This document shows positions 54,702 through 56,843 of a stretch of 64,000 bases of DNA, in pieces (position 1 is the first letter of the stretch; the number at the start of each line of letters is the position of its first letter). Origin of the DNA: Alloacidobacterium dinghuense (GTDB taxonomy: Bacteria > Acidobacteriota > Terriglobia > Terriglobales > Acidobacteriaceae); assembly GCF_014274465.1 (NCBI RefSeq), contig NZ_CP060394.1, positions 4,774,001 to 4,838,000 on the forward strand, read 5' to 3'. The position numbers were made by a program, and so were the translations under genes. Under the pieces are notes generated by a model. The model did no database searches. It was not told the DNA's origin and saw only the letters and a list, made by a program, of their open reading frames with translations.

Positions 54702-56843
54702 CTAACGAATTACTTTGATCGAGGCCAGCGCGGTAAGTCCCAACCCTCGTCCGCAATCGGTCGCGTAGGCAACGGTTGCATTGTCCAGCCACGCAGGCGC
54801 GAACGCATTGCAGTCGCCGAATGTGAGCTGGCGTTCGTCATGGCTGGCAACGCTCATTGTCATCAGCTGCCAGCGATTGAAGAGCAACTTGCGAAAGGCT
54901 ATCTGCTGCCCGTCGGGAGAAACGGCAGGGGCTTCCACTTCTTCGCGGTCAGCGATCAGGACAGCCGGCTGGCTGCCGGGAGTGACCTGATAGATATTCG
55001 TTCTGCCATTCACGCGCGCAGAAAAGACGACTTCTCCGGAAGGTGTCAACGCGGCATCGCGAACATCATAAGGTTCGCGCACCAGCTCAGCATCGCTGAG
55101 CAGGGCTGGTGCGCCGGTCCGCGCTGCGAGGTGTGCGATGCGGAGCTGGCCTCGACCTTTTTCTTCGCGGATGTACACCAGTAACGCTCCGTCGGTCGAA
55201 ATTGCGGGAGACTCGGCGTTTTGGATCTGCATCTCAGGCGAATCTCCAAGCGTGATGCGCGAGCCGCCTTTGTCGGCCAGCTCCGGGATCACGCGCGATT
55301 GATTTCTGGTTGTAGCTGATGAGAGCTGATCGGATGCAGTATGCTCCCACGCCATCTGTCCGTTTTGGTCAACAATTTGATATCCGGACCGGCTCATCAC
55401 TGTTGCCACAAAGCCATCGTCCAGGGGATGGACGCCAGTCGCGAGCAGTGGATGGATAGGAAATCGCAATCGCGAACGGATATCTTCTTCGAGGTGAGAA
55501 AAGTGATGCTGATAGCTCGTGAACCCGGCAATCCAGAACACTCCTGAGAGCGCTGTAAGTGGAATGGCATTCAACAGGATGTTTTTGCGGCTTTCCGGTG
55601 TATAAGCCTCGCGCCAAACGCAGATCACGAGGACAATCCAAAGGAGCAATTCGATCCACAAGCGGGAAAAAGCAAGCACCGTCTGGAATGTAAATGCACT
55701 GCTTTTCGGAGGCGGACCCACCACATTGCAGATGATGAAATAGAGCAATACTACGATCCCCAGCCGAAGATATTGTTGCCTCTTGACCAGAACATCCGCG
55801 GCGAGAATGATCGGAAGGATCATTACGACGAAGTGGTAGCTCGAAGGCACGGGCGACAAAATGAGCAGGGCGAGCAGAAAAATGGCCCACTCCAGTTTTT
55901 CCGTATCACGATCGCGCGATGAAGGTCGAATGCTCAGAAACAACGGGAACCACACTGCAACCTGCCACAGCGGATAGAAGATCGAGTAGAGGGCCGGTCG
56001 ATTCCACACGGGTGTCGGATTCAGATCCGGCTCAAGAATAAAAAGCCGATGCAAGAATGCGGCCGCCGACGCAGCCTGAGGGCTGTAAGGGTCGATCACC
56101 TCACCCTGCATGCTGCGAGGAAGAATCTGAGTGATGTAGATGTGCATGAGATGGCTGCCAAAACACAGATAGCTGACGCCGAGCAGCGCTGCCGTTCCAG
56201 CCACCACGGAAAGGGCTTCGCGCCACTGGCGCTTCCACGCGAAGTAGAAGACGAATAGAAGTGGATATACCTTCAAAGCTCCAGCGAGCGCCACGAGTGA
56301 TCCGCAAACGATACCGCGCTCGCGTAGACGAAAAAAATATGCGAGCGACAACAGTATCAGCACCAAGATATGCATTTGCCCAAGAATGAAACTCGACCGC
56401 AACGGAATGACTGCTAGCAGTGTCAGAATCCAGATGCGACGCCGACCGAGCCGGGTCACGCGCTGGAGCGTCTCGGATGTTCCGAACAGGAATAGAAGAC
56501 TCGCAACGATCCAGAACCGCTTGGCGATAAGCGCCGCAAAGCCGGCCAGCGGCAACACAGGCAATGCAGAAAACGGAGTGAGTCCGGCGAAGCCGACCAG
56601 CGACTGGTCAAGTCCCCAGTGGTCTTTGATTCTCTGCAGCCATATCCAATCGTAGATGCGATCGAGGCTGTAGCCTTCGCGTAGGAGACGTGCGACAAGA
56701 TAGTAGTTTGGAAAGTCAGAATGGAGACCGCGCCAGCCCGGCAGCACTCCCCTCGCCAGCAGAAGACATGCAAGAAACGCCAAGCAAAACAATTCGATGC
56801 ACGGCCATAGTTTCGTGTGCAGGCGAGTCGTGGCATCCTTCAT
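54702..56843 (-). CDS. GT87-type membrane glycosyltransferase fused to a TolB/PD40 propeller
   Basis: A 713-residue protein from the ATG at 56843. Residues about 12-440 hold ten or more transmembrane helices with GT87 (DUF2029) features: LHSDFPNYYLVARLLREGYSLDRIYD with acidic residues in the first loop, SFILGQMHILVLILLSLAYFF and GALKVYPLLFVFYFAWKRQW. GT87 enzymes are polyprenyl-phosphate-mannose-dependent mannosyltransferases. Residues about 465-713 are soluble and contain WD40-like/PD40 repeats (ESPAISTDGALLVYIREEKG, EAPAVSPDGQQIAFRKLLFNRW, CNAFAPAWLDNATVAYATDCG), likely a beta-propeller on the periplasmic side. The fusion is unusual. It ends 40 nt from the convergent MBL gene. Confidence 0.82.
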   Translation of the reverse strand: MKDATTRLHTKLWPCIELFCLAFLACLLLARGVLPGWRGLHSDFPNYYLVARLLREGYSLDRIYDWIWLQRIKDHWGLDQSLVGFAGLTPFSALPVLPLAGFAALIAKRFWIVASLLFLFGTSETLQRVTRLGRRRIWILTLLAVIPLRSSFILGQMHILVLILLSLAYFFRLRERGIVCGSLVALAGALKVYPLLFVFYFAWKRQWREALSVVAGTAALLGVSYLCFGSHLMHIYITQILPRSMQGEVIDPYSPQAASAAAFLHRLFILEPDLNPTPVWNRPALYSIFYPLWQVAVWFPLFLSIRPSSRDRDTEKLEWAIFLLALLILSPVPSSYHFVVMILPIILAADVLVKRQQYLRLGIVVLLYFIICNVVGPPPKSSAFTFQTVLAFSRLWIELLLWIVLVICVWREAYTPESRKNILLNAIPLTALSGVFWIAGFTSYQHHFSHLEEDIRSRLRFPIHPLLATGVHPLDDGFVATVMSRSGYQIVDQNGQMAWEHTASDQLSSATTRNQSRVIPELADKGGSRITLGDSPEMQIQNAESPAISTDGALLVYIREEKGRGQLRIAHLAARTGAPALLSDAELVREPYDVRDAALTPSGEVVFSARVNGRTNIYQVTPGSQPAVLIADREEVEAPAVSPDGQQIAFRKLLFNRWQLMTMSVASHDERQLTFGDCNAFAPAWLDNATVAYATDCGRGLGLTALASIKVIR

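Follow-up and report, generated by a model that had tools for sequence, protein, structure and literature searches.

A predicted GT87-type membrane glycosyltransferase joined to a TolB-like propeller in Alloacidobacterium dinghuense and related bacteria

Glycosyltransferases of the GT-C type add sugars to envelope lipids, to glycans and to proteins; to our knowledge, the way in which these enzymes choose their acceptors remains open for many families. Within family GT87, a described reference is the mannosyltransferase PimE (PDB 9dm5, 9dm7), which has twelve transmembrane helices with both the N and C ends cytoplasmic; mutants of D58, Y62, Y92, Q163, K195 and W319 are dead (for Y92, Q163, K195 and W319, activity is lost in the alanine mutants), and those of H321 and H322 are weak (PMC12041525). 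Some GT-C enzymes are also known to carry additional carbohydrate-binding modules outside the cytoplasm (PMC11127046). In a deep-learning fold study, GT87 is placed among the shorter GT-C families, and an extended C-terminal domain is named there only for the GT-C2 cluster and GT66 (PMC8476585). No description of a fusion between GT87 and a propeller was found in searches of the open-licence PubMed Central literature whose listings give the beginnings of abstracts.

The gene described here lies in a window of 64,000 nucleotides from Alloacidobacterium dinghuense (contig NZ_CP060394.1, positions 4,774,001 to 4,838,000) and occupies window positions 54702-56843 on the minus strand, running without an internal stop from an ATG codon at 56841-56843 to a stop at 54702-54704. 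The product has 713 amino acids from this ATG, as given by the list of open reading frames (ORFs), the translation and Pfam; the alternative start in that list, a TTG two codons upstream, would yield 715. Three parts can be differentiated, all encoded on the minus strand: a PimE-like GT-C membrane domain (residues 1-415, positions 55599-56843), delimited by Pfam GT87 and by a structure model aligned to PimE; an extra, thirteenth helix predicted to be a membrane tether (residues 416-454, positions 55482-55598), which appears in the model beyond the part aligned with PimE; and a TolB-like propeller (residues 455-713, positions 54705-55481), six-bladed by its match to TolB and assigned from TolB 2w8b, the designed protein Pizza6 and Pfam PD40. 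The original prediction, that a GT87-like polytopic enzyme carries a PD40 propeller at its C terminus, is borne out by these results. The Pfam GT87 match (PF09594) reaches 94.5 bits against a cut-off of 25, exceeding the curated threshold, and the PD40 match reaches 26.8 bits (cut-off 20.9) in a single stretch, residues 635-649 of the 712-residue query; this PD40 signal covers one repeat only, and the assignment of all of residues 455-713 to a propeller depends on the predicted structure together with matches to TolB profiles. When solved structures were searched by sequence, the membrane part matched PimE best, and the C-terminal part matched TolB chains first and WD40 proteins after them. 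The identity of the fused protein as the TolB of the cell was rejected, since it scores 37.7 bits with the TolB equivalog (NCBIfam TIGR02800), far below the cut-off of 343.15, and the genome encodes its own TolB elsewhere (389.6 bits). By score and fold, the fused protein belongs to GT87 and is not TolB, and the joined architecture, one gene with two domains, is almost certainly real.

An AlphaFold2 model of the window protein, computed from an alignment of this protein and ten relatives, has a mean pLDDT of 85.0 and a pTM of 0.85. Foldseek ranked TolB first and PimE 45th; in a second look at these matches with VIA-align, residues 9-411 superposed on PimE 9dm5 (Z 23.7, 3.2 Å over 364 residues, the PimE chain compared having 383), residues 462-713 superposed on TolB 2w8b (Z 22.9, 2.8 Å over 230 residues), and Pizza6 matched the propeller at Z 19.7. 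For the junction, which had been placed near residues 440-470 with structure prediction as its check, the model does give a single helix between membrane domain and propeller, although this helix, at residues 416-454, is located just before the expected place. A second model, of the relative from a KSB1 genome (L017, 23% identity), contains the same three parts with a pLDDT of 80.3 and a pTM of 0.81, matching PimE at Z 31.1 and TolB at Z 22.8; its extra helix (residues 429-455) and linker are poorly predicted, with helix block means of about 50-62. The pTM values above 0.8 suggest a settled placement of the modelled propeller on the membrane domain. The fused protein resembles PimE in its predicted membrane fold, in an Asp after helix 1 and in the places of Gln163 and Lys195, whereas PimE stops on the cytoplasmic side once helix 12 is complete and the fused protein adds a thirteenth helix and a propeller. 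Similarly, it shares with TolB (Tol-Pal; PDB 2w8b, 1crz) the predicted six-bladed fold and the PD40 repeat; however, it is predicted to be tethered to the membrane, and its propeller is preceded in the model by the GT-C domain and the helix, with no N-terminal alpha/beta domain of the TolB kind.

In the putative active site, Asp43 (positions 56715-56717, minus strand), located in a DFPNYY motif where the helix following helix 1 begins, is the expected catalytic base and is an Asp in all 31 fused proteins whose sequence covers this column; from its position and from the Tyr four residues on, it would be the equivalent of PimE D58, with the same spacing between D43 and Y47 as between D58 and Y62. 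In a phmmer alignment, Lys191 (positions 56271-56273, minus strand) falls on PimE Lys195, a phosphate contact, and Q156 falls on Q163; Q156 and K191 are kept in 31/31 fused proteins and Y47 in 30/31. Other places differ from PimE. The W319 position holds A in 25, S in 4, T in 1 and G in 1 of 31 proteins, and the H322 position holds H in 16 and N in 12 of 31, both in a stretch where the alignment is weak (score -3.9), and the Y92 position, adjacent to the start of the alignment, holds I in 15, L in 10, H in 4, Y in 1 and F in 1 (n = 31). Two residues essential in PimE, W319 and Y92, therefore appear not to be kept, their places being set by a weak and an edge alignment, respectively. These differences, together with that at H322, may mean either that the carrier-phosphate pocket is altered in detail, in which case a sugar other than mannose could be the donor, or that catalysis has changed. 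The fused protein is probably an active transferase, a reading made slightly less secure by the place of Y92. The fused family can be recognised by two motifs, DFxN(Y/D)Y following helix 1 and D-x-x-R in the last blade of the propeller, the latter being Asp696-x-x-Arg699 here (positions 54747-54758, minus strand), with both D and R present in 32/32 fused proteins.

Given the twelve helices and cytoplasmic ends of PimE, one extra helix should bring the propeller to the periplasm, and with core and topology well supported by prediction, it is very probable that the propeller is held on the periplasmic side by a thirteenth membrane helix. A hydrophobic stretch of 19 residues occurs at the extra helix in 32/32 fused proteins, with best Kyte-Doolittle means of 1.08-2.43, the low end being marginal, and of 1.73 in the window protein. 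The segment before it contains between one and five basic residues (Lys/Arg) and from none to three acidic ones (Asp/Glu) in the 32 proteins, charges that would amount at most to a mild positive-inside signal; the helix itself shows the least letter conservation of the parts (59% identity to L025, 23% to L014). In the last blade, Cys678 (positions 54810-54812, minus strand) and Cys697 (positions 54753-54755, minus strand) are the halves of a possible disulfide; by numbering in the model they face one another on either side of the strands 680-685 and 690-695, and both are present in 27/32 fused proteins, neither in 5/32, and never one without the other. This all-or-none pattern fits a disulfide in an oxidising compartment and agrees with a periplasmic propeller. 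All of the 27 carriers but L016 belong to one clade (support 99/96, with the near-copy L041 outside the tree), so that few events may underlie the pattern.

In total, 32 distinct fused proteins, this one included, were collected from Acidobacteriota and one KSB1 metagenome-assembled genome, where distinct means differing in the last 200 residues and near-copies are included (30 remain at 90% identity); relatives range from 69% identity (G001) to 23% (L017). A scan of genome contigs found the fusion at 10 of 15 loci (L009-L018). Counting its own genome, the protein was matched in 7 of 100 related genomes, where G075 and G090 were hit by the membrane part only, their propellers being confirmed separately, and in 20 of 396 phylum genomes at E<=1e-30, with propeller evidence in 19; in the phylum search, the match in G270 is of the membrane part only, that in G379 (L129) is an incomplete sequence lying where a contig ends, and L018 and G266 are one identical sequence. 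No plasmid match to the fused protein was returned by tblastn. On a wider scale, 127 GT87 matches at E<=1e-8 were found in 199 phylum genomes, and a propeller was detected by profile on 8 and seen on none of the other 119; open frames of at least 600 residues were all searched, and the shorter ones (567 residues or less) were partly searched and otherwise judged by length alone, among which a half propeller could be missed. A usual GT87 architecture was rejected on these counts, in keeping with the earlier claim that the fusion is not a common one, and the genome of A. dinghuense itself has eight GT87 matches, with a propeller on this one only. As a separate observation, another acidobacterial genome contains four tandem GT87 matches (L098, G167:C59) in frames of 835-1357 residues, without a propeller match.

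On its own, the propeller marks the fusion poorly. A search with residues 448-713 gave hits at E<=1e-5 in 96 of the 297 phylum genomes covered, chiefly to other TolB-like proteins, with fused proteins as the best 11 matches. In the A. dinghuense genome (G000:C1), 27 TolB-profile matches occur at E<=0.001, of which one (730291-731550) lies above the TolB cut-off, and the remainder are partial, many of them in frames of about 700 residues.

In a tree of 66 rows, the label "fused" changes twice, against a mean of 22.3 when labels are shuffled. The 32 fused rows represent 30 distinct proteins (L031 repeats L028, and L038 repeats L088), with the near-copy L041 and the fragment L129 left out; they cluster at 84/99 with one unfused long-branch sequence (L096) inside, and a single change of label was obtained in 40% of 200 bootstrap trees. 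The position of L096 leaves one origin undemonstrated by the tree. Judged from these sequences, the fusion is old, inherited mostly as one unit and patchy among genomes. Both domains are under purifying selection: dN/dS is 0.19/1.65 in the membrane domain and 0.26/1.36 in the propeller against the same-genus L025, and 0.37/2.35 and 0.56/2.83, respectively, against L014, with dS near saturation. Identity is lower in the propeller than in the membrane domain in both comparisons (64% vs 73% for L025, 41% vs 57% for L014). Two relatives are short after the extra helix, L030 (= L103:8485-10083) having about 120 residues there, roughly half a propeller, and L028 having 205; a full propeller is accordingly not strictly required.

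The gene neighbourhood was compared across 32 loci, including the window, by BLAST grouping with single linkage, in which families may be mixed and each name is taken from one member; the stretches differ in length, and the counts are lower bounds. A B12/radical-SAM family lies near the fused gene in 17/32 loci, a polysaccharide co-polymerase/export family in 9/32, an HprK-related family in 9/32 and a bacterial sugar transferase family in 6/32, and GT4, WecG or GT28 genes lie near some other copies. In L009, the fused gene directly adjoins a Wzz/polysaccharide-export gene, after which comes one for a bacterial sugar transferase, and homologues of both occur in the same order in L011. None of the four families was found in the fetched stretches around the window copy, L010, L012, L014, L016, L105, L107, L109, L143, L144 and L145, nor near L106, where GT4-family and WecG genes are present. 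The window copy is flanked by genes that read as metallo-beta-lactamase/rhodanese-like and short-chain dehydrogenase-like, with no glycan cluster. For part of the family, these neighbours tend to suggest a link with surface polysaccharide or with secreted products; they tell little about the window copy. The large proteins beside the fused gene (L009:7208-10936 and L011:7130-10879, of about 1244-1250 residues) are of note in themselves, that of L009 combining Wzz and GNVR (co-polymerase) with Poly_export and SLBB (export) in one chain and that of L011 being its homologue by BLAST. Just upstream of the fused gene in L009, L011, L013, L015 and L108 are B12/radical-SAM, HprK-related and NTP_transf_5 genes, in some cases with a small unknown protein, a set named in L009 and traced in the other loci by BLAST family.

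The protein is proposed to be an inner-membrane GT-C glycosyltransferase of the PimE-like GT87 family, which would transfer a sugar from a polyprenyl-phosphate carrier at the periplasmic face with Asp43 as the catalytic base, the TolB-like propeller being kept on the same side by the thirteenth helix. The acceptor is guessed to be an envelope or exopolysaccharide glycan, and the propeller is guessed to determine acceptor choice by binding either this acceptor or some partner in the periplasm, like the carbohydrate-binding modules of other GT-C enzymes. The roles suggested in the original prediction, recognition of a protein or glycan acceptor or attachment of the enzyme to the envelope, are likewise a guess, and the genes next to the window copy point to no partner. 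By analogy with EmbC, AftD and GT136, whose modules are glycan-binding, the protein may work as a transferase of the PimE kind to which a module in the periplasm has been added. With EmbA/B/C, AftD and GT136 ORF12, the likeness lies in a GT-C core with an added extracytoplasmic module, predicted here and carbohydrate-binding there; the module of the fused protein, in contrast, is a propeller rather than a carbohydrate-binding module and sits on GT87 (PMC11127046). The overall reading, a lipid-linked-sugar transferase whose periplasmic propeller binds an acceptor or partner, is modestly favoured; a glycan acceptor is given an even chance, and the guess that the propeller is the binder of acceptor or partner falls slightly short of even. 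Alternatively, the propeller may read no acceptor and may instead serve to dock or scaffold a protein of the periplasm, such as a part of the polysaccharide export machinery. The propeller of TolB binds the protein Pal (PMC7391070), and the gene next to the fused one in L009 joins Wzz with Poly_export/SLBB domains and has its homologue in L011; however, the copies of the window, L010, L012, L014 and L109 are without such a neighbour, and a scaffold predicts a constant partner, of which none was seen among the loci compared. Such a docking role is considered rather unlikely.

Invariance in the last blade weighs on another explanation, in which the propeller would have a structural role only, as a lid on the periplasmic face of the GT-C domain or as its stabiliser, with no ligand of its own: D696 and R699 are kept in every fused protein, and most sampled GT87 matches (119/127) show no propeller at all, against which can be set the faster divergence of the propeller relative to the membrane domain, the fixed placement suggested by the pTM of 0.85, and the loss of about half the propeller in L030. 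This lid is judged unlikely. The GT87 part might, moreover, have lost or changed its catalysis, leaving a sensor of lipid-linked sugars, as the unkept places of PimE W319 and Y92 and the histidine retained at H322 in about half of the proteins would allow; the constancy of D43, Q156 and K191 (31/31) and the strong purifying selection on the membrane domain argue against a sensor, which is deemed improbable. An equally low probability is given to a receptor for peptides or lipoproteins, by which this GT87 clade would comprise extracytoplasmic protein glycosyltransferases with acceptors picked by a TolB-type propeller. Finally, the frameshift or assembly join about which the original prediction had cautioned is excluded by the 32 distinct fused proteins, from this genome and others, and by the uninterrupted reading frame in a genome assembled as one contig; nothing was found in its favour, and that any artefact, annotation included, unites two genes here has a negligible probability. 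The fusion would offer an experimental handle: given a propeller that is conserved in one clade of GT87 and can be separated, its removal or exchange could test whether acceptor choice sits in an accessory domain.
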